A DNA stretch of 24,588 nt from a virus (IMGVR_UViG_3300020430_000088:1-24588), one strand, 5' to 3'; numbered from the stretch's first letter, positions 1,277 through 23,648 are shown. Notes: generated from the letters alone by a model not told the origin. Made by a program: numbers and translations.

Positions 1277-2425
1277 CTAACTCCTTTCTCTCGTCATTGC
1301 TTCAAGCTTTTGGTCTACATCCATAGCCTCGTATGCTTCGTAATCAAACTCGTTGATTGCTTTGACATACAGATTGTCATCAAGTCTGACATCATACTTA
1401 CTAATGTATTCAGATAAGTTAGGATATCTTGTACGGTCTGACTTGACCCATTCTATCCAATCAGCAGCTGACCTTACTGCATTGATTGATTCCATGTAGT
1501 CCATATTATCTCTGTCGAGATAGGCAGTGTATTCATACAATGAATCAACAAACTCAATGTTCTTCAACACTCTGTCTGCTCTTAGGTTTGACCTAAAGAA
1601 TCTAAGTTCAATAGTTGACCTTGGCACCATGTTGATGAACTTGTATCTTTGTTCTTCTTCATCACGTCTATTCATAGCAACATGTGCCATCTTAGACTTG
1701 ACTTCTCTCGAAGTAGTTGGCATCTCAAATCTTGCCCAGTTGTTGAATCTTCTTTGTCCAATAACTGATATCAAGTTTGGATACCTTTGATGATTGACAG
1801 GAGTCAATGCAAGTGTCTCCAATAGATGCAACCATATAAACAGTTGTGTATCTTTGAATGCACCTTTAGGCATGTGAATATGCATACCTGCAGTATTGGT
1901 ATGATAACCCAATGCCTTACTTGCAATAGACTCAAGGTTCAAATCAATGTTTGACCAAGCACCAAGTGTTAGTGGCTGGCTAACAAGCTCGGTACCTCTG
2001 TTCAATGAACCATCATGCTTGTGATAGAAGAACTGAGTAACCATATCATCATTACCTTTTGTAATGTCTGAACGGCTATCGTCTCTATATCTGCTGACGT
2101 AACATCTATCCATAGACTTCTTGTTCAGTCTCCAGATATCGTCATCGATTACTACATCAGGATAATCTTCATCATAATCCTCGTCGTAGTAATCATCGTC
2201 TGAAACATATCCATCTCTGAACTCCATCTCAATCTCGATACCCATAGGGATACCTTCTTGTTTGATGAATTGACTGTCTACATGATTAGCAGATGTCCAA
2301 GCATCTATCATTCTTTCTACACCTATAAACTTGAAACCAGGTCTATAGCTGTAACTGAACTGACCAGAGTTAATCTTACGATTAATTTCACGGTCAAGTT
2401 CAGCTTTTCTTTCTTCGGATATCAT
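1277..2425 (-). CDS. Amidoligase, glutamine synthetase-like (second copy)
   Basis: This 382-residue protein is likely a COOH-NH2 ligase of the glutamine-synthetase-like amidoligase family (Amidoligase_2 type), which uses ATP to join a carboxylate to an amine. Visible motifs in order are GIEIEMEF at 62-69 (Glu residues as metal ligands), HKHDGS at 135-140, TELVSQPL at 145-152, GMHIHM at 180-185 and TIELRFFRS at 271-279. This order matches the GxExE, DGS-E, GxHxH and ExR signature of the family. A very acidic Asp/Tyr loop lies at 71-96. The start is preceded by AAAGGTGG at good spacing. The gene is in one operon with a larger amidoligase and a glutamine amidotransferase. The fold call is fairly strong, but the substrate is unknown: cell-wall peptide, protein or a DNA base are all possible. 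Confidence 0.8.
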   Translation of the reverse strand: MISEERKAELDREINRKINSGQFSYSYRPGFKFIGVERMIDAWTSANHVDSQFIKQEGIPMGIEIEMEFRDGYVSDDDYYDEDYDEDYPDVVIDDDIWRLNKKSMDRCYVSRYRDDSRSDITKGNDDMVTQFFYHKHDGSLNRGTELVSQPLTLGAWSNIDLNLESIASKALGYHTNTAGMHIHMPKGAFKDTQLFIWLHLLETLALTPVNHQRYPNLISVIGQRRFNNWARFEMPTTSREVKSKMAHVAMNRRDEEEQRYKFINMVPRSTIELRFFRSNLRADRVLKNIEFVDSLYEYTAYLDRDNMDYMESINAVRSAADWIEWVKSDRTRYPNLSEYISKYDVRLDDNLYVKAINEFDYEAYEAMDVDQKLEAMTRERS

Positions 2426-2451
2426 ATATCCACCTTTCTTTATTCGTATTT

Positions 2452-2835
2452 CTATTGTTCGTTTTCAATAGCTTCTATGATGTTATGCAAGTCTGTACCA
2501 CTCACGGTGTGCCAATCATAACCCGCATCAGTATGATGGGTAGTATCTTCCTCAACCAACTCACCATATTCAAGAGCCTCATTAACTATGTTTGCGTTGT
2601 CATAGAACCAATCCATAATTGAATCTTCATCCCATCTATCATTTACCATTTCATCAATGTTGTGTTCATCAAACACTTCATCAAGTGATAAAGTAACTCG
2701 ATATGTTCTGGTATATTGACAATGACCTTGCTCTTCAACTGATGCTTCATAAGTACCACGATTTACCAATTCCATGATTCCTTCCACACCAATAGTTTCA
2801 ACTAACTTGTTCCAATTAGGTATCTTCATAGTCAT
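2452..2835 (-). CDS. Acidic hypothetical protein in the amidoligase cassette, 127 aa
   Basis: I do not recognise this 127-residue acidic protein. It begins MTMKIPNWNKLVETIGVEGI and has a helical N-terminus, a beta-like stretch around YTRTYRVTLSL (about 42-52), then Asp/Glu/Asn-rich helices with DEDSIMDWFYDN near 70-81. No Cys cluster, membrane segment or catalytic motif is obvious. The start has AAAGGA six bases upstream; Met3 is a possible alternative start. It lies between the glutamine amidotransferase and the second amidoligase, 17 and 26 bases from them. It could be an accessory or substrate-carrier protein of that pathway, but this is inference from position only. Confidence 0.6.
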   Translation of the reverse strand: MTMKIPNWNKLVETIGVEGIMELVNRGTYEASVEEQGHCQYTRTYRVTLSLDEVFDEHNIDEMVNDRWDEDSIMDWFYDNANIVNEALEYGELVEEDTTHHTDAGYDWHTVSGTDLHNIIEAIENEQ

Positions 2836-2852
2836 TCCTTATCCTTTCTTTC

Positions 2853-3815
2853 TTATCTACTGAATTCAAGTTCAGCACCGTCACAAGTCTTTGCACAGGC
2901 TCGTTCGAGTTCAGCATCTACTTTCTTCCCACATATTTGACACTTGAATGATTTTGTCTTCTCATTGAACACGAGAGCATAATCATCCATTAGCATCTGT
3001 AGGTCTTCGTAAATGAAGCCAAGTTCAGCATGCATACTGAAAACAATGTCTTCAATTCCTTCATCATCTTGAAGCTTAGGTGGTATAACACCCTCTACGA
3101 ATTTTGCATAGTTGATGTCTCTACCGTCTGCTTCAATGTACCAATCGTCATAGTCTTCTATGACACAGTTGTCATAGGTATATGCGATTTGGTCTTGACT
3201 CCAACCTCTTTGATAGTCATAGTTACCAAAGGTAGTAACAGTCTTCTTAGGTGTTTTGTTAGGTAAGTGATGGTCATTGGAATACCATACACCCTTGTCC
3301 CATACACCTAGTCTTTCGTTGATAATGTATGACTCTTTCTTGAGCTTCTTGTTAGCTGATAAGAATACCAACTTGTTGAACCCAATCAAGTCACCCATCA
3401 TCTCAGTGAATGCAACGTCATCCAATGCTACAGGCTTCATGTGTTGCAAGAACACATTGTTGAAATGCCTTGTGTCAGATAAGTCTGACTTAGCAGGTGG
3501 ATGAAACTCATTAGGCAAAACGCCATTGTGAGCAAACACTGTCTGAGGGTCAACATGAAATGGATGGTTGTTCTCAATACATACTGAACCATGAGTTGCA
3601 ATCCTCATGTGTACAACAATGTCTGAGTTACCATATTTCTTGGTTACCTCTTTGAACTTGGTCTTGAATGCCTTGAGCTTCATAGTCTTGAAGACTTGAA
3701 TTTTGCCATCCTCAATCCAAGCAATACCACCACCATCTGGGTTTCTCTTCCACATCTGGTCAAGTGTTTTGTTTGTTATTGTCTTACCCTTAGGTAAGCT
3801 TGCGATTACACACAT
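2853..3815 (-). CDS. Class II glutamine amidotransferase (Ntn hydrolase)
   Basis: The protein of 320 residues starts MCVIASLPKG, so removal of Met exposes Cys2, the N-terminal nucleophile of class II glutamine amidotransferases. Family motifs follow: NPDGGGIAW at 25-33, VVHMRIATHGSV at 67-78, NNHPFH at 82-87, FAHNGVL at 94-100 and SDTRHF at 113-118. A C-terminal zinc-finger-like set (Cys292, 295, 307, 311) follows a divergent middle region. The longer reading from an upstream codon is rejected, because AAAGGAG stands before this ATG and Cys must be residue 2. In this family the domain releases ammonia from glutamine or acts as a peptidase. Its location between two amidoligases suggests it supplies ammonia to them or trims what they join. 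Confidence 0.85.
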   Translation of the reverse strand: MCVIASLPKGKTITNKTLDQMWKRNPDGGGIAWIEDGKIQVFKTMKLKAFKTKFKEVTKKYGNSDIVVHMRIATHGSVCIENNHPFHVDPQTVFAHNGVLPNEFHPPAKSDLSDTRHFNNVFLQHMKPVALDDVAFTEMMGDLIGFNKLVFLSANKKLKKESYIINERLGVWDKGVWYSNDHHLPNKTPKKTVTTFGNYDYQRGWSQDQIAYTYDNCVIEDYDDWYIEADGRDINYAKFVEGVIPPKLQDDEGIEDIVFSMHAELGFIYEDLQMLMDDYALVFNEKTKSFKCQICGKKVDAELERACAKTCDGAELEFSR

Positions 3816-3829
3816 ATGTAATCTCCTTT

Positions 3830-5839
3830 CTATTCTCTTTCGAGAATTCTGTATCGTTCTTCGACAACAGGATATGTTGCCAATCTTTTCAATAGATATT
3901 CTGTATCTTGATTGTGATACCTTAGTACCCATCTCATAAATACATCGTCACCATTTTCTCTTACTGCTCGTATTCTATCGAGTAACATTTCTGGAGGTGC
4001 TTGGTCCTCATCTTCATAGTCCCAACCAATATCCTCTGTCAATGATTTACTCAATGACCACAAGTTTTGTACATACTGAATCATTCCAAGTATTGAGTTT
4101 TTACCAGTATTGGATTGAAACATTCTTAGCTCCAATGTTTCTCCATGTGTGGTATTGACTGCCCAATACTTGTCATTAGCACCAGTCTGTTGTTTCTGTC
4201 TTGCAACTTCGAATGCTCTATGTCTTGCACCTCTGAATACAAGTGGTTGCCATATAGCAAATCTGTCGTTACTTCCTCTACCTGCAACTGCTCTAAGAAC
4301 ACCTTGAGGTTTCAGCATCATACTTTCAAGCAACTCAAGGAATACCCATCTGTGTGGAATATCCATTGCGTCATATCCAATATGAATATGAATACCATAG
4401 TTCTCCATAGCTCTACCCATGAAGTTGTCTCTGAAGTAATCCCAGAATCTGTCAGGTATGTGATTTATCCAATAGTCATAACTCAATGGTTGAGTTACAA
4501 ATTCTGTACTATCACTTCCAAGTGAACCATCTCTCTTGTGAATCACAAGTTGAGTCGGACCATCTTGTAGATAGTATTCTGGATAGTTGTCAGGATGAAA
4601 CATAACGATTGCTTGTTCCATAACTTTTGAAACAGTTCTCCAGTCTTTCCTATCCTCTCTTACCTTCACTTCAATCTCTACACCATAGAATGGACCATAT
4701 TCTTGTACCCAGTCTTCACGATTTTCAATGGCAGGTACATGCCTTGAATAGTAAAGATTGTCACCCATAGGTACTCGATATGCACCATTCAAGAAGATAG
4801 GTGGTCTATAGTTGTATAACTGTTGGTTGAGTAGAAACTGACTTCTACTTCCTGTCCAACTACTAGGTATCTCTATATAGAACATACCATCACCGAAGCC
4901 TTCATAGGTATCATATATCTTTCTTGCTTGTCTGTTGTGAGTTCTGTCTGCATCACTGTTGACCTCTCTGATAATGTCAGCAAGTTGCACAGTATCAAGA
5001 TTCTCAAGTCGTACTCTTCCTATATCTATAAGATAGAATCTTCCATCATCACCATAGCCAATGTTGTTATCAGCTAGTTTCAAGAGATGATAATCTCTTC
5101 CTATACCAACATCACAATCATAGATATCGTCAATATGCTCAACAGTGAGATTCTGTAAGAATCCAACACATTGTAAACAAACACTCTTTGCTCTACCATC
5201 CATATTGGATAGATACTTCAAAGGAACCATGTCTGTTCTATGTTTGTTGTATGATGAACATACAGAACATCTTTGATACTTTCTACCATGACTTTGGATA
5301 TCACCATAAGACATCCAATCTTTGTGATATCTGTTCCAATGCATTCCAGAGTGTCTTGCAACACCAATAGCTTCTCCATCACTTAGACGAAATGCTTTGG
5401 TTCTGAATGAAGAGTAATCAGCATTACCTCCCCAACCTCGTTCAATTGGTACAACAAATCCCCAATTGTCAGCTACACTCTTCCAAGCAAGGTCTACTTC
5501 TGTGTCTCCCACCAATCGTCTGTGTACCAGAGTATCTCGGTGAATATCCAACCATAAGAGATGTAACTGCCAACTCTTGATAGTTCCATCTGCCCAGTTA
5601 GTTAGAGGACGAGCTAAGAACCCATCATCCAACTCATCTGGTTGCAGTTCCCAGAATCTATCAAACTCATCGTCATAATCAAATAACTGATTGACAATTT
5701 CATAGTTTGTATCTCGTTTGTTCAATATAAATAATTCATATACTGTTACAAACAAGAAACCCTGAACCTCTTCACGGTCAGTATGACCAGCTCCGAAAGC
5801 CAACCTGATTTGTTCAGGTAATGTTTCGAATAGTCTCAT
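3830..5839 (-). CDS. Amidoligase with long N-terminal zinc-finger extension
   Basis: This 669-residue protein has a C-terminal glutamine-synthetase-like amidoligase domain (about 380-600). Motifs are GVEIEVKV at 386-393, HKRDGSL at 434-440, TEFVTQPL at 445-452, GIHIHIG at 482-488 and TLELRMF at 568-574, in the same order as in the second copy. The N-terminal 370 residues are not typical of a minimal amidoligase. They include a CSVC...CLQC four-cysteine motif (Cys191, 194, 221, 224) that probably binds zinc and could hold nucleic acid or protein. GGGAGGAAGG precedes the start. The gene ends 14 bases before the glutamine amidotransferase, so the two are likely co-expressed. The ligase fold is well supported, but the role of the extension and the substrate are unknown. 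Confidence 0.78.
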   Translation of the reverse strand: MRLFETLPEQIRLAFGAGHTDREEVQGFLFVTVYELFILNKRDTNYEIVNQLFDYDDEFDRFWELQPDELDDGFLARPLTNWADGTIKSWQLHLLWLDIHRDTLVHRRLVGDTEVDLAWKSVADNWGFVVPIERGWGGNADYSSFRTKAFRLSDGEAIGVARHSGMHWNRYHKDWMSYGDIQSHGRKYQRCSVCSSYNKHRTDMVPLKYLSNMDGRAKSVCLQCVGFLQNLTVEHIDDIYDCDVGIGRDYHLLKLADNNIGYGDDGRFYLIDIGRVRLENLDTVQLADIIREVNSDADRTHNRQARKIYDTYEGFGDGMFYIEIPSSWTGSRSQFLLNQQLYNYRPPIFLNGAYRVPMGDNLYYSRHVPAIENREDWVQEYGPFYGVEIEVKVREDRKDWRTVSKVMEQAIVMFHPDNYPEYYLQDGPTQLVIHKRDGSLGSDSTEFVTQPLSYDYWINHIPDRFWDYFRDNFMGRAMENYGIHIHIGYDAMDIPHRWVFLELLESMMLKPQGVLRAVAGRGSNDRFAIWQPLVFRGARHRAFEVARQKQQTGANDKYWAVNTTHGETLELRMFQSNTGKNSILGMIQYVQNLWSLSKSLTEDIGWDYEDEDQAPPEMLLDRIRAVRENGDDVFMRWVLRYHNQDTEYLLKRLATYPVVEERYRILERE

Positions 5840-9563: not shown

Positions 9564-9827
9564 ATAGCGACGCTTGCAGACATACTTACAGTTCCTGATT
9601 TTTATGAGAATGCTAATTGTGTTGGGGAGAATCAAGATTTATTTTTTCCAGAGCGGGGGAGTTCTACTGTAAAAGCAAAGAAAATCTGTAATGAATGCAA
9701 AGTCAAAGAACAATGTCTAGAATTTGCTGTAGAGAGAAAAGAAAGGTTTGGTATCTGGGGTGGTAAATCTGAGAGAGAACGAAGAGCCATTAGACGAGAA
9801 CGAAGATTACAAGAAAAAAAGGCGTAA
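9564..9827 (+). CDS. whiB: WhiB-family iron-sulphur regulator, proposed ATA start
   Basis: This 87-residue protein has four Cys at 19, 42, 45 and 51 (C-x22-CxxC-x5-C), DLFFP at 25-29, then GIWGG at 63-67 and an Arg/Lys-rich tail (70-86). This is the complete WhiB signature: a 4Fe-4S cluster, a sigma-factor-facing turn and a DNA-contacting basic tail. In Actinobacteria these proteins bind region 4 of the primary sigma factor and change promoter use. No ATG, GTG or TTG exists in frame upstream before the stop. AAGGAG is followed after five bases by ATA at 9564, the proposed start. The gene probably steers host or phage transcription at the early-to-late switch. Confidence 0.88.
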   Translation: MATLADILTVPDFYENANCVGENQDLFFPERGSSTVKAKKICNECKVKEQCLEFAVERKERFGIWGGKSERERRAIRRERRLQEKKA

Positions 9828-12921: not shown

Positions 12922-15558
12922 ATGGCAGAAGATAGAAATAGATTTTTAAAAGCCTTTGATGTAATCAGAGGTAGAGAAGAAAAAGCTAGTTATAACCAAA
13001 TGTTTGGTAATGATGTTTCTGTATATGGATACAATACAACATCAGGTTTTTTCGAATCAGATAAGTTAGCCGAGATAGGAGATGGTTCAGCAAATTCTGC
13101 TGTTATCGCATGCCTTAATGTACTATCAACAGCTTTCTCTGAACCTACATTGAATGTATGTAAACCTGATGAGTACGGCAATATGGATAAAATTGCTCAA
13201 CATCCAGTAGCAGAATTGTATGCCAGACCTAATCCATACATGTCAGCTGGTTTATTAAGTCACTACATTGTTTTGGCAATGAATACAGTTGGTGATGCCT
13301 TCCTTTACAAAAATAAAAATGCTCAAGGTCAAGTAGTACAACTTGTTCCAATAATGCCTCATCTTGTGGAAGTAAGAGGCAATCAAGAAGAATTGATTAC
13401 ACATTATGAATATTATCAACATGGTAAAGGTGGAGAGAACATGAAGATACCTGTTGATGATATTGTACATATTCGACAAGGAATAGACCCTAATGACCAC
13501 AGAAGAGGTCATGCTCCATTAAAAGGTGTATTAAGAGAAATATTAGGAGACGAGGCTGCAGGTCAATGGTCAGCTGCTCTACTACACAATATGGCTGTAC
13601 CTGGAGTTGTTTTATCACCAAGGAATGATTCGCTTGGTGGACCAACTAGGGAAGAAGCAGAAGCTATTTCTGAATCATACAAACAAAAGTTTGGTGGTGC
13701 GAATAGAGGAGCTCCTATGGTTTTATCTGGTTCAATGAATGTTGATATAGTTTCTTTTTCACCTGACCAAATGAAGCTACAAGAATTAAGAAGATTACCT
13801 GAAGAAAGAATATCAGCAGTTCTTGGAGTTCCAGCAATCTTAGCTGGTCTAGGTGCTGGACTTGATTCAGCTACATACAATAATACAAGAGAATTGAGAG
13901 AATTTTTCACAGAGCAAAAATTAATACCTATGTGGAAGATTGTCTCAAATGAACTTACACATCAACTTCTTAAAAAAGATTTTGCAGATAATGAATTAGA
14001 ATGTAAATTCGATGTAACTTCTGTCAGAGCTTTGCAAGAAGATATGGATGATTTATATAAAAGAGTAAACACAGGTGTTCAAGGTGGTTGGATAACAATT
14101 GGTGAAGCAAGAAAAGTAGTAGGTCTTGATAATGATGAAAGACATGATGTTTACTTAAGACCATTGAATATGATTCAAATCCAAGAAGATGGTACACCAC
14201 TTCTAGAGAGAGATAGATTCTCACCTGATGAAGGTAAATCTTTATTGGGCTCAGTTGCTTTACCACCTGAATCCACAAGGCAAGATATTATCGAATCACC
14301 TCAGAGAATAGAAGAAGAAAAGTATGTAGCTCAAATGCCTAATGGTGCTTTCTGTGTTATTACTCACGAAAACAATGAAATTATAAAATGTTTTAAAACA
14401 AGAGCTGAAGCAGATAAGTTTTTAGCTGATATGAAAAAATCACAAAGACCAAATGAGAATTTTTTCTTAGAACCTGATGAAATAAAAGTATCATTTGAAG
14501 AAGCAGAGGCTTTACATAATGTAGAGTCAGATAGTTATAGAAGTGAAAAGAAAGAAAAGCCAATAAAAGATAGAACAAATTTTCCAAGTCGTGGAGATGA
14601 TTTAGCTATTAGAATTACTAACTCAAAATATAAAATGTTTCCTTATGCTTTTGCAAAAGATTTAAAAGAAAATTATCCAGAGATTTGGAGAATGGCTGGT
14701 ACAGGAGGTAATCCTCCTACTGCTTTTACAGGTAATGATGCTTTTGCTAGATGGTCTAAATATCAAAAAGGTGATAGAAGTGAATCAGTTTTAAGTTGGG
14801 TAAAAAGAAGAGAAAGATACATGAGTAGACATCAAGGTGATTCAAGATTAAATGGTGTTATAGCTGCTATCAAATGGGGTGGTGTTTTAAATATAGGCGA
14901 ATCAAAAATGAAAGAAATTATTGCTGAAAGAAAAAAACTTGTGAGAGAAAGAAGAAAAAAATCTTTATTAGTACAAGGTCAAATACTTGATGAAATATTT
15001 GCAACCAAAGTTTCAGCTAATGTTAGAAAAATTTTAACTAACAAAGTTAAAAAACATAATGAAAAAAATCCAAAGCACAGGGCAAATTTAAGAACACTTA
15101 TAGCAGTATTCCGAAGAGGTATTGGAGCTTATAGAACCTCACCAGGTTCTGTTAGGGGTAATGTTGTAAGTGCTGAACAGTGGGGAATGGGCAGGGTCAA
15201 CGGGTTTATACATGCTTTAAGAACTGGTAGATTCAAAAGAAAACCTTATGATACTGATTTGTTACCATCATCACATCCACTCTCATCTAAGAAAAGTGGT
15301 GAGAAAGCATACTCAGTTAGAGTTGGGCAATCTGTAAGCTGGTCTATAAATAAAGACCCTCAACCCCCATCAACTGTTCATGGTGTTGTAGTATCGGTAA
15401 ATGGTAAAGAAAAAACTGCGACTATGCAAGTGTGGGCTATCTTAGAAAATGGTAAACATAAGAGAACCGATAGAAGAGTAACTCAACCTATATCAAAGCT
15501 AACTGTTATAAAGGATATTACAAAAGAAAAGACACTAAATTCTGAGGTAAATGTCTAA
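12922..15558 (+). CDS. Portal protein with long C-terminal extension
   Basis: This 878-residue protein has an HK97-family portal domain in its first ~440 residues (for example VIACLNVLS, NPYMSAGLLSHYIVLAMNTVGDAF beginning at about 95, PEERISAVLGVPAILAGLG near 292-310). HK97-type portals are usually about 400-500 residues. The extra ~430 residues hold a Lys-rich domain starting FPSRGDDLAIRITNSKYKMF at 554, a segment with AEQWGMGRVNGFIHALRTGR near 752, and an SH3/Tudor-like end (VGQSVSWSINKDP near 801). The portal forms the dodecameric DNA gate. The extension may be a fused morphogenesis or injected domain. The start follows terL by three bases. Confidence 0.85.
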   Translation: MAEDRNRFLKAFDVIRGREEKASYNQMFGNDVSVYGYNTTSGFFESDKLAEIGDGSANSAVIACLNVLSTAFSEPTLNVCKPDEYGNMDKIAQHPVAELYARPNPYMSAGLLSHYIVLAMNTVGDAFLYKNKNAQGQVVQLVPIMPHLVEVRGNQEELITHYEYYQHGKGGENMKIPVDDIVHIRQGIDPNDHRRGHAPLKGVLREILGDEAAGQWSAALLHNMAVPGVVLSPRNDSLGGPTREEAEAISESYKQKFGGANRGAPMVLSGSMNVDIVSFSPDQMKLQELRRLPEERISAVLGVPAILAGLGAGLDSATYNNTRELREFFTEQKLIPMWKIVSNELTHQLLKKDFADNELECKFDVTSVRALQEDMDDLYKRVNTGVQGGWITIGEARKVVGLDNDERHDVYLRPLNMIQIQEDGTPLLERDRFSPDEGKSLLGSVALPPESTRQDIIESPQRIEEEKYVAQMPNGAFCVITHENNEIIKCFKTRAEADKFLADMKKSQRPNENFFLEPDEIKVSFEEAEALHNVESDSYRSEKKEKPIKDRTNFPSRGDDLAIRITNSKYKMFPYAFAKDLKENYPEIWRMAGTGGNPPTAFTGNDAFARWSKYQKGDRSESVLSWVKRRERYMSRHQGDSRLNGVIAAIKWGGVLNIGESKMKEIIAERKKLVRERRKKSLLVQGQILDEIFATKVSANVRKILTNKVKKHNEKNPKHRANLRTLIAVFRRGIGAYRTSPGSVRGNVVSAEQWGMGRVNGFIHALRTGRFKRKPYDTDLLPSSHPLSSKKSGEKAYSVRVGQSVSWSINKDPQPPSTVHGVVVSVNGKEKTATMQVWAILENGKHKRTDRRVTQPISKLTVIKDITKEKTLNSEVNV

Positions 15559-20045: not shown

Positions 20046-23000
20046 ATGGGATATATGGGAAGCCTTTTCGAGAGGGCAACCAGTGGAAAGATATATAAAA
20101 ATCTTAGGGAGACAAGAAATTTCGAAGAAGCAGGTTATGCATTTCTTTACAACCTTGGACAAATGGGTTCCATCATTCCTATAGTTGGACCAAGTTTCAA
20201 AAACATGGGTTATGAAGCTTTACAAAGATATAATGACTTTCAAGCTTTTCAAAAAACTGGAAGATTTAGAAATGTAACTTCTCGTACTTTAGTTTATAAA
20301 GTTGGTGGTCGTTTGTTATCAAGAAGTTTTGATGCTGCTTTACCACAAATAAGTGGACCTATGGGTAGGGCTTTAAGAGTTGGTACTGGTCGTGTTTCTG
20401 CAAAATTATTATCAGATGCAGATAGAAAAGTAAGAAACTTTATAGAAGGTAACTTTTATATGGATGCAGATAAAGTTACAAAAAAAGTAACAAGAGGGGC
20501 TATGAGAGATGAATTCAATATTAGAAAAATACAAAATTCAATAGTTGCTATAGCTTCAGCTAATGCTCCTGATTACTATGCAATCAATCGAAGAAATGTA
20601 TTAAACAGAGATTCACAAAGTGATGAATATATAACTGGTATGACTTTTGATGGTTATTCAAAAAATGAAATAGAAAGTATGGTTTCAAGGATGGATATGT
20701 CCCGATATGTTAGAGAAAAAGAATTACCTAGAGTAAATGATATTAGTGATTACATTCAAGAACATAGACCTTTCACAGTTGATTTTCAAGGTGCTTCAAA
20801 AGTAATAGACCCAGGACCAAATGCAAGATTTTCTGTTCAAACACTTAAACATGAAGAGGATGGTGTTTCTGTTATGAGTCTTGAAACATTTTCAAGAAAA
20901 AGAGATGCTGAGAACTTTATCAGAAGGAATCCAGACAAAATTCATACAGCAGCAAATATGGCAACTGGTAGAAGAGAACTAGATATGTATTCAAAAAATT
21001 TGACTGGATATGGACCAACTTATGATTTTTCTGGTGGAGGTAAAACTAATGATGAATTAATTTCAGATGCTGCAGCAATAGTGGAACTTGCTTATTTAGA
21101 AAAAGCAGGTGAAATAGATGCTGGTTCTATTAATAACATAACCTTAGCTATTTATGACCAACTAATAGATTTAGCTGCTCAAAATGTAGATTTAACTTCT
21201 TTAGGAATTGCATCTGAATTAAGAAATCTGAGAGGAGATGTTGCTGAGCTTTATGGTAAAGAATTAACAAAAGCGTTACATGATGACGGTTTAGAACCAA
21301 TTAAAACAGGAAGAGCAAGAGATAAATTTGATAGAGAGCCAGGTGGTAGAAGAGTAACCACTAGAGGTTCTTATACAGCTACTTTTCATGACAATCCAAG
21401 GAGACATAATTTTGTTCCTAATAGACAACAAATTCAAAAAGCGATTCATGCTTTAGAACCCGTGCTTGGTAGAAAAAATGAAATAGCAACATACTATGTT
21501 ACTTTTGGTGGTAAATCATCAAAAAGTAGGGATGCTGATTTTTTAAGAGATGCTTTTCAAATAGAGTTAGGTGGACCTGCAACTGATAGACAAGGAGGTT
21601 TATTTAATAGAACAGATGCTTATGTGTATACACCAACACTTCTTATGTATAAAGCTTTACATAATACAGCTATGGCTTTTGGTCTTAATAAAGCTACTTC
21701 AAAGCCAACCATGGAAGGTATTGTTGCAAACAAAATAACAACCACTACAAAGTCTGGTGGAGATTCCTCTTCATTAGTTTTAAGAAAATCACAAATTAGA
21801 GCAAAAGGGATGAGTAAACCAAATAGAGAAACTCGTGCAGTTATGGAACAACTTTATATGTTTTCCAAAAAAAATAGTGATGGAAATATTATGACAGATA
21901 ATAATGGAAGATTTATATTGTCTAAAAGTAGATTGGTTGATAAACATAAAAAAGCTACTTTGGAATTAGTTGACGATGTTTTAAATGATGTTTTATTTGG
22001 TGGAGGATTTATAAAAGGTTCGAAGGCTTTAGATTTAGGATTATTTTCACAAAAACCAGAAAGAGTACCTTTTGATAAAACTTATAGAGGCGTTCCAACA
22101 TCACCTCAACAAATTGCAGATGAGATGAGCTTTCTTGGTTTTGAAGAGCAGAGAAGAATGTCTGCTGCCTCAAAAATTGGTGGTTCTATAAATGATGAAG
22201 ATTTTAAATTTGTAGGACAGATTGTAGATAGTAGACCTGATAGTTCAAAATTTATTTTCGAATCAATAGATGACGGATTTGGAAAAGAAATGTTTCTTAT
22301 TAAAGCAGTAAAAATGGAAGGAAGACCTGTAAATTATAAATCAACTAAAGGTCTTGGAGGTTCAAAGTCTGCATCGCAAGGATTAGCAAGTTCACAAACT
22401 TTAGGCACCGATGCAGGTATGCAATTATCAAATCAATTAGATGGGATTTCACCTGATGATTTGTTAAGTTTTACTGGTTCTGTTAGTGGTCTTAATCAAG
22501 TTAATAGAAAGCTTCTTATTCAACCTATGAAAGCGGAAATCGAAGGAAAGATAATTGTAATTCTAAACAAAGGCAACGTACTCACTCCACAAGAAAGGGT
22601 TATGTTAGCAAGAAGGTTTGTGCAAAAATTAGAAAATGATTTTATCAGTATGTCAAATGATTTAAGTCCTGTTGAATTAGCAAGAAAAAATATTAGAAAC
22701 TTAAGAAGAAATAATCTTACTTTAAGGGAAGCTGGTATAAGACTTTCAAGAGCAGATATGGAAGCTTTTGCTTTAGCAGCAGAAACTGGTTTACAGCAAT
22801 TATCTTTACAAGTAACAAAAGTTAGAAAAGGGGCAAAAACAAGTATAGATGATAGAGCAAGACCATTTGGTCCAGCTGAAGTTGTTGATGCGTCTAAAGT
22901 AAGAAGAGATGCTGATTTTACAGCAGGGCAACAATTTGCAGTATTTGCGGGTGGTGATATTGACTCTATTATTCCAAACATAGGAACAGGTACTTTGTTT

Positions 23001-23648
23001 GAAGAGTTTAGAAACGTTCTTGCTGCAGCTTTAGCTAGAAATGCTTCAACTGGTGAGATAGAGAGAATCAAAAACAAATACAGAACTCTAGCAAGACAAG
23101 CACAAAAGGAGAAAGCTAGACAAGCAGGTGTTGGTCTTAGTGACCCTGATTCATCGATAGTAGGTGGTAGTAAGAGTGCTAGAGATATACCTAATACTGG
23201 TTATGCGAGTTACGGAAGAACTGGTGAAAAACCATCTGGTGGACAAGTTGGTAATATTACTGGACAAGCTGGTTCAGGAATGAATAAAAGATATGCACTG
23301 GTGTTAGCTAGAAGTGTCCAGCAAGATATACAAACTTATAACTTAGATAGAGGTGATGACAATCTAAATGCTAGAAGAAATGCTTATGTTGCAGAACAGC
23401 TTAAAACAGTAAGGGACAATCCTAGTTACATGAAAAAATTAACAGAAAAATTAATTGCAAATCCTAATATTAGAGCTGCATTTTCGGTTGTTATAAACTC
23501 ACAACAAGGTAGAAAAGGTAACAGAAGTGTAGAAGATATTAGAATTTTCATTACTGAACAAGCAAGAAGTGCGTTTGAAGCTGAGGCAGCATTGTTTGAA
23601 GAATCACAAAATGTTGATTTTGAAAGTGATGATTTATTTGAAGATTAA
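20046..23648 (+). CDS. Very large unknown protein in the neck region, 1200 aa
   Basis: The 1200-residue protein starts MGYMGSLFERATSGKIYKNL. It lies exactly where a short (about 100-150 aa) neck or HK97 gp10-like gene is expected. The N-terminal ~150 residues have a hydrophobic GSIIPIVGPSF patch and basic helices. The middle has no motif I know. The region near residues 1020-1090 is Gly/Ser/Arg/Lys-rich and looks disordered, and the end is acidic (FESDDLFED). No transmembrane or enzyme motif is clear. Candidates are a fused neck protein, a large internal virion protein injected with DNA, or a head decoration. TAATATG at 20042-20048 couples it to the closure gene. Confidence 0.6.
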   Translation: MGYMGSLFERATSGKIYKNLRETRNFEEAGYAFLYNLGQMGSIIPIVGPSFKNMGYEALQRYNDFQAFQKTGRFRNVTSRTLVYKVGGRLLSRSFDAALPQISGPMGRALRVGTGRVSAKLLSDADRKVRNFIEGNFYMDADKVTKKVTRGAMRDEFNIRKIQNSIVAIASANAPDYYAINRRNVLNRDSQSDEYITGMTFDGYSKNEIESMVSRMDMSRYVREKELPRVNDISDYIQEHRPFTVDFQGASKVIDPGPNARFSVQTLKHEEDGVSVMSLETFSRKRDAENFIRRNPDKIHTAANMATGRRELDMYSKNLTGYGPTYDFSGGGKTNDELISDAAAIVELAYLEKAGEIDAGSINNITLAIYDQLIDLAAQNVDLTSLGIASELRNLRGDVAELYGKELTKALHDDGLEPIKTGRARDKFDREPGGRRVTTRGSYTATFHDNPRRHNFVPNRQQIQKAIHALEPVLGRKNEIATYYVTFGGKSSKSRDADFLRDAFQIELGGPATDRQGGLFNRTDAYVYTPTLLMYKALHNTAMAFGLNKATSKPTMEGIVANKITTTTKSGGDSSSLVLRKSQIRAKGMSKPNRETRAVMEQLYMFSKKNSDGNIMTDNNGRFILSKSRLVDKHKKATLELVDDVLNDVLFGGGFIKGSKALDLGLFSQKPERVPFDKTYRGVPTSPQQIADEMSFLGFEEQRRMSAASKIGGSINDEDFKFVGQIVDSRPDSSKFIFESIDDGFGKEMFLIKAVKMEGRPVNYKSTKGLGGSKSASQGLASSQTLGTDAGMQLSNQLDGISPDDLLSFTGSVSGLNQVNRKLLIQPMKAEIEGKIIVILNKGNVLTPQERVMLARRFVQKLENDFISMSNDLSPVELARKNIRNLRRNNLTLREAGIRLSRADMEAFALAAETGLQQLSLQVTKVRKGAKTSIDDRARPFGPAEVVDASKVRRDADFTAGQQFAVFAGGDIDSIIPNIGTGTLFEEFRNVLAAALARNASTGEIERIKNKYRTLARQAQKEKARQAGVGLSDPDSSIVGGSKSARDIPNTGYASYGRTGEKPSGGQVGNITGQAGSGMNKRYALVLARSVQQDIQTYNLDRGDDNLNARRNAYVAEQLKTVRDNPSYMKKLTEKLIANPNIRAAFSVVINSQQGRKGNRSVEDIRIFITEQARSAFEAEAALFEESQNVDFESDDLFED

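Follow-up and report, generated by a model that had tools for sequence, protein, structure and literature searches.

What could two amidoligases and one glutamine amidotransferase be doing side by side in a virus? The question is raised by four genes in the virus record IMGVR_UViG_3300020430_000088, the 24,588 bases of which constitute the stretch analysed here (the window); coordinates count from its first letter.

Genes of the cassette and their setting

Four open reading frames follow one another on the minus strand, in the order amidoligase A (ligA), class II glutamine amidotransferase (GATase), a small protein of 127 amino acids and amidoligase B (ligB). Because the gaps between them measure only 14, 17 and 26 bases, we consider them to be arranged as a single operon, as the original prediction of one leftward operon with a 127-residue partner had it. 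The roughly 600 bases downstream of the cassette (660-1260) contain no convincing gene. Rfam and tRNA searches of the window gave no match, and promoter and terminator scans of the window scored no better than scans of shuffled sequence. PADLOC detected no defence family in the cassette, and neither a DNA search with the whole cassette nor a tblastn search with ligA returned a match in the phage collection.

The first cassette gene, ligA (3830..5839, minus strand, 669 amino acids), and the last, ligB (1277..2425, minus strand, 382 amino acids), are paralogues (26% identity over 345 amino acids, E 1e-18), and both match phrog_16683 (1.7e-15 for ligB). The Pfam family Amidoligase_2 (PF12224, cut-off 22 bits) is matched by ligB over the cut-off (26.9 bits) and by ligA under it (16.8 bits), and the ligA relatives in loci L007 and L012 exceed it. 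PF12224 is the only family matched by 27 of 44 related ligases; the 44-row ligase alignment (A3) is too diverse for use as a scanning profile. ligA is counted as a member of Amidoligase_2 on account of its paralogue ligB, the relatives that exceed the cut-off and its own fold.

This fold is that of the glutamine-synthetase (GS)-like domain of ligA (approximately residues 376-669; 3833..4714, minus strand), recognized by conservation and modelled with a pLDDT of about 90 across most of residues 381-669. Every Foldseek match to the domain with E < 0.001 belongs to the GS superfamily (YbdK, GS, Dop and PafA), and VIA-align aligned 250 residues with the GS structure 3o6x (Z 10.5, rmsd 5.2 Å). In a viral structure library, the nearest models are phage amidoligases, including a protein of mycobacteriophage Tesla. 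The predicted structure of the ligA domain is a glutamine-synthetase fold, and ligB, by homology, is expected to share it. Residues E388, E390, D437, E446, H484, R521, E570 and R572 of the ligA domain are invariant in the alignment of relatives; H486 and N562 are kept in most relatives and replaced only in some distant members. All positions of the active-site order ExE, D, E, G-x-H-x-H, R, N, ExR are present in the window's ligA and ligB, the latter keeping the N562 position that is replaced in 3 of 14 B ligases. The original prediction, which had seen a GS-like amidoligase motif order in both proteins, holds up in these complete active sites, in the profile matches of ligB, of ligA relatives and of the GATase (below), and in the modelled GS barrel of ligA.

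Upstream of its domain, ligA carries a Cys4 zinc-finger-like segment (C191, C194, C221 and C224; 5168..5278, minus strand), invariant in alignment A6 and modelled with a pLDDT of about 75, which ligB lacks. The N-terminal part of ligA (residues 1-170, low pLDDT) gave no fold match, which is no proof of a new fold.

The GATase gene (2853..3815, minus strand) encodes 320 amino acids from a corrected start. The start at 3932 given in the ORF listing was rejected, as the protein that aligns with relatives starts MCVIAS at the ATG at 3815, which is preceded by the ribosome site GAAAGGAG; with this start, the catalytic (nucleophilic) cysteine is residue 2. The protein matches Pfam GATase_4 (1.6e-10) and aligns with the GlmS glutaminase domain in both the PDB and NCBIfam; within NCBIfam, the match to GlmS reaches 2.5e-10 and that to EgtC is weak (0.008). 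C2, R71, N97, G98 and D114 are invariant in 86 viral relatives. Alignment to the GlmS domain 1xff covers R71 and N97-G98, which we take to be equivalent to GlmS R73 and N98-G99, and D114 presumably corresponds to GlmS D123. Profiles and invariant catalytic set together identify the protein, at the level of sequence, as a class II (Ntn-type) GATase, in agreement with the Cys2 class II amidotransferase first predicted between the ligases. A single-query GATase search of viral contigs gave no confirmed match, and a search with alignment A1 succeeded. Matches L102-L111 in the genome collection, which are GlmS-like proteins of approximately 580-620 amino acids, were put aside.

Outside the enzyme system, and as context only, the translation of a gene at 9606..9791 (plus strand) belongs to the WhiB family (PF02467, E 1e-23), a marker of actinobacterial hosts. 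WhiB is also present in 11 of 11 records with two ligases, and among 14 control genomes the family was detected in Corynebacterium only. As WhiB-like proteins are reported to occur in Actinobacteria only (PMC8612146), assignment of the window to an actinophage is well supported. The original prediction of a small actinophage was right about the host and not about the size, since the 24.6-kb record is probably a fragment and relatives reach 65 kb. Elsewhere on the plus strand, the window encodes an 878-amino-acid portal protein (12922-15558), the C-terminal third of which lies outside the portal profile matches, and a 1200-amino-acid protein (20046-23648) that is situated among head and connector genes and has no PHROGs match.

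The ligase-GATase pair and its doubled form

Scanning viral contigs with a profile detected 472 relatives of the GATase; the analysis covered the top 80, those most like the window's GATase. In this set, a ligase gene adjoins the GATase in 75 of 77 distinct viral loci, a co-occurrence beyond chance, and for 58 of the 81 GATase genes the ligase ends at most 20 bases upstream of the GATase or overlaps it. To judge from the gene arrangement, such adjacency and overlap suits two subunits of one enzyme. The two exceptions are L072, a truncated locus, and L052. The latter carries four class II GATase genes in tandem (L052:4630-8852), with no detectable amidoligase, directly behind an adenylosuccinate-synthetase-like ORF that we take, from its N-terminal motif, to be possibly of the PurZ type.

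About 20 single-ligase loci also carry an ATP-grasp gene of the RimK/R2K type, and more than one ligase is also present in the unrelated loci L062, L088 and L090. Ligase-GATase pairs were observed in bacterial contigs as well (L087-L101), mostly from Actinomycetota (Mycolicibacterium, Nocardia with two pairs, Labedaea and Coriobacteriia). In an Atopobiaceae contig (L095:5173-7218), ligase and GATase lie in one frame of 681 amino acids with an internal Met-Cys at the expected GATase start, which could represent a gene fusion or two adjacent genes sharing a frame. The pair is a widespread and already published phage cassette (Marvin, MEP401/402). The enzyme identities, operon and actinophage host first proposed stand. 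Amidoligase-GATase pairs as such are common in phages; what is unusual is only the doubled form with a small protein.

Two ligases with one GATase were found in the window and in loci L006-L012 and L014-L022, some of which overlap or repeat one another. In a ligase tree, the domains of ligases A and B, 29 in all, group together to the exclusion of 77 single ligases (support 100/97), the placement of four long-branched A domains (L016 and L018-L020) being unsure. With A and B in one clade, the duplication is therefore most simply placed inside this lineage. At least two CxxC motifs precede the domain in 15 of 15 A ligases and in 67 of 77 single ligases, as against 0 of 14 B ligases. Since the Cys4 segment is found in A and most single ligases and is absent in B, A retains the ancestral form and B is a trimmed copy. 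The active site has nevertheless been preserved in the B ligases. Comparison of four close pairs gave dN/dS values under 1 throughout for ligA, the GATase and ligB (0.13-0.71), clearly in some comparisons and weakly in others, and sequence evidence suggests that ligB is probably a second, non-redundant ligase. An ATP-grasp gene was not found in 11 two-ligase records, which are perhaps incomplete, using profile A5, which detected both positive controls; PF14243, a weak test, found none in the window. We found no description, in the literature searched, of two unequal paralogous ligases that share one GATase and are accompanied by an exchangeable family of small acidic proteins. A clade in which one ligase copy keeps the zinc finger and the other lacks it, next to a swappable acidic partner, offers a natural comparison for the role of each part.

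The acidic small protein and the predicted chemistry

The 127-amino-acid protein (2452..2835, minus strand) is strongly acidic, with a net charge of -24 and two lysines. It belongs to a family that starts M-x-(I/V)-P-x-W-N (IPxWN), being detected at E 1.7e-6 by a profile of same-place relatives built without the window (jackknife), and it has no match in Pfam, PHROGs, NCBIfam or PADLOC. Family proteins measure 110-138 amino acids, and the ten members examined carry net charges between -22 and -26, with 0-3 lysines each. In L006, L007, L010 and L011, one to three copies per locus occupy the GATase-ligB interval and the place behind ligB, and L012 has one copy, behind ligB; the family was undetected in the two-ligase loci L014, L017, L021 and L022 and is marginal in L018 and L020 (E 0.14-0.84). 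L006 and L010 are 90-96% identical in their ligase and GATase proteins but 48% identical in the first small protein, and dS is 1.7 for the small protein versus 0.16-0.21 in neighbouring genes. The fall in DNA identity within the cassette is limited to the small-protein gene, and we read this, in one pair of viruses, as an allele swap of that gene alone. The same-place protein of L018 and L020, of marginal family membership, likewise changes fastest (81% versus 94-96%). The structural model of the small protein (mean pLDDT 50, 11 sequences) is of too low quality to be used.

From the established chemistry of the two enzyme classes, a class II GATase paired with a GS-fold ligase would be expected to amidate a carboxylate, using ATP and glutamine-derived ammonia. 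The cassette is probably a glutamine-dependent amide-forming system in which the GATase feeds ligA, ligB is a second ligase and peptide carboxylates are the likeliest target. The GATase would split glutamine by its N-terminal cysteine and pass the ammonia to ligA, its likely partner because of the ancestral zinc finger and the gene position, and ligA would activate a carboxylate with ATP and convert it to a carboxamide. ligB may act on a second carboxylate or attach a further amine to the substrate of ligA, drawing either on the same ammonia or on free ammonia. The targets could be peptide carboxylates of the infected actinobacterium, in the peptidoglycan stem peptide or in a protein, and their change might exclude competing phages or redirect the host's programme, with the small acidic protein as a specificity factor, regulator or substrate. 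We infer the ammonia transfer between subunits, the two-step action and everything on the substrate. Two points count against this amide-forming system: proteins with GATase-like domains include hydrolases of the EgtC type, and the four GATases of L052 have no detectable ligase.

Among the targets, the cell wall is a tentative candidate, and a protein and a metabolite are each only slightly less likely. DNA is hardly credible: nothing was found in favour of the DNA modification offered in the original prediction, and no known base-modification pathway gene was seen in the window. In actinobacterial walls, glutamine-dependent amidation of D-Glu and DAP is established (PMC10484409 and PMC7920481), which makes it plausible that a phage alters wall amidation. 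That wall modification blocks superinfection has been put forward in the literature as a speculation (by Iyer et al. 2009, according to PMC10580990 and PMC11318856), and PMC10580990 discusses the phage pair as a system that may concern superinfection or a metabolite. In the literature searched, we found no substrate reported for phage amidoligase-GATase pairs and no biochemical characterization of any member of this phage family.

A gamma-glutamyl metabolite cycle with a stress or auxiliary metabolic function would assign the enzymes differently, the ligases making gamma-glutamyl amides (compare YbdK/GCS-type enzymes and EgtA) and the Ntn protein being an EgtC-like hydrolase that removes gamma-glutamyl groups, not an ammonia donor. 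The top PDB folds for the ligA domain do include YbdK, glutamate-cysteine ligase and gamma-glutamylmethylamide synthetase. A gene for gamma-glutamylamine cyclotransferase (GGACT) is present in 2 of 12 two-ligase records and occurs together with amidoligases in LUZ24-like phages (PMC3890496), and such genes have been treated as auxiliary nitrogen metabolism (PMC10945688). However, the GATase is far closer to GlmS than to EgtC. Neither the window nor the majority of the two-ligase records, some of them fragmentary, yielded a GGACT gene, and we regard such a cycle as unlikely. The same grade applies to the proposal of a small acidic protein that is carried along without a link to the enzymes, for example a DNA-mimic anti-defence protein, next to two ligases duplicated for dosage. 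Strong acidity and fast, swap-like evolution are typical of conflict proteins, but copies of the small protein recur within the cassette, both in the GATase-ligB interval and past ligB, and the consistent difference in architecture between A and B (zinc finger in 15 of 15 versus 0 of 14) argues against plain dosage.

The best structural matches of the ligA domain include Dop and PafA, and two GS-fold paralogues stand beside a small acidic protein in an actinophage, which brings pupylation to mind. The two paralogues might amidate the small protein or conjugate it to targets while the GATase adjusts its amide or acid state, which we judge improbable. That both ligases and their shared GATase conjugate or amidate the hypervariable, lysine-poor family of 110-138 amino acids as the carrier of target specificity is no more probable. 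The charge and lysine scarcity of the family, its paralogous copies within loci and the exchange of its gene alone between two close viruses would suit such tagging. Against it, the family is undetected or marginal in the six two-ligase loci named above, its members have no conserved C-terminal tag, the GS fold is common to many unrelated activities, and the small-protein model cannot be used.

Comparison with known systems

Unlike the Pup of the PafA/Dop system, none of the small proteins ends in GGQ or GGE. MurT/GatD and LtsA/AsnB, which use glutamine to amidate the carboxylates of wall peptides in actinobacteria, may be functional analogues; they belong to other enzyme families (a Mur ligase with a class I-like GATase, and the asparagine-synthetase/PurF type), so this is analogy and not membership.

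Both the pair and phage sets with more than one ligase are known (PMC3890496 and PMC11318856). Like the window, prophage phi13alpha of Clostridium clostridioforme LM41 has two genes annotated as amidoligases; unlike it, a gamma-glutamyl cyclotransferase is present, and the portion of the table considered lists no GATase (PMC11318856). In LUZ24/phiEco32-like phages, too, two or more ligases accompany a class II GATase (UFV-P2 table in PMC3890496; see also Iyer et al. 2009). There, the ligases come from different families (PF14395, PF12224 and ATP-grasp) and are accompanied by GGCT, whereas the window has two paralogues of one family, with no ATP-grasp found in the records examined. The phages MEP401 and MEP402 of OM43 (Methylophilales) carry a homologous, overlapping amidoligase-GATase pair, published as PF12224 plus GATase with the superinfection suggestion quoted (PMC10580990), but with a single ligase of 546-548 amino acids and a non-actinobacterial host.

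Finally, mycobacteriophage Marvin (gp105/gp106) and its cluster S relatives share with the window the gene order, homologous proteins and an actinobacterial host. The GATases are 31% identical over 201 amino acids, ligB and gp105 28% over 199, and in both a ligase with a Cys-rich N-terminus lies directly upstream of the GATase. Marvin differs in having one ligase, and no IPxWN small protein was seen beside its pair. A laboratory host allows deletion of this single-ligase pair, which makes the old superinfection proposal testable.
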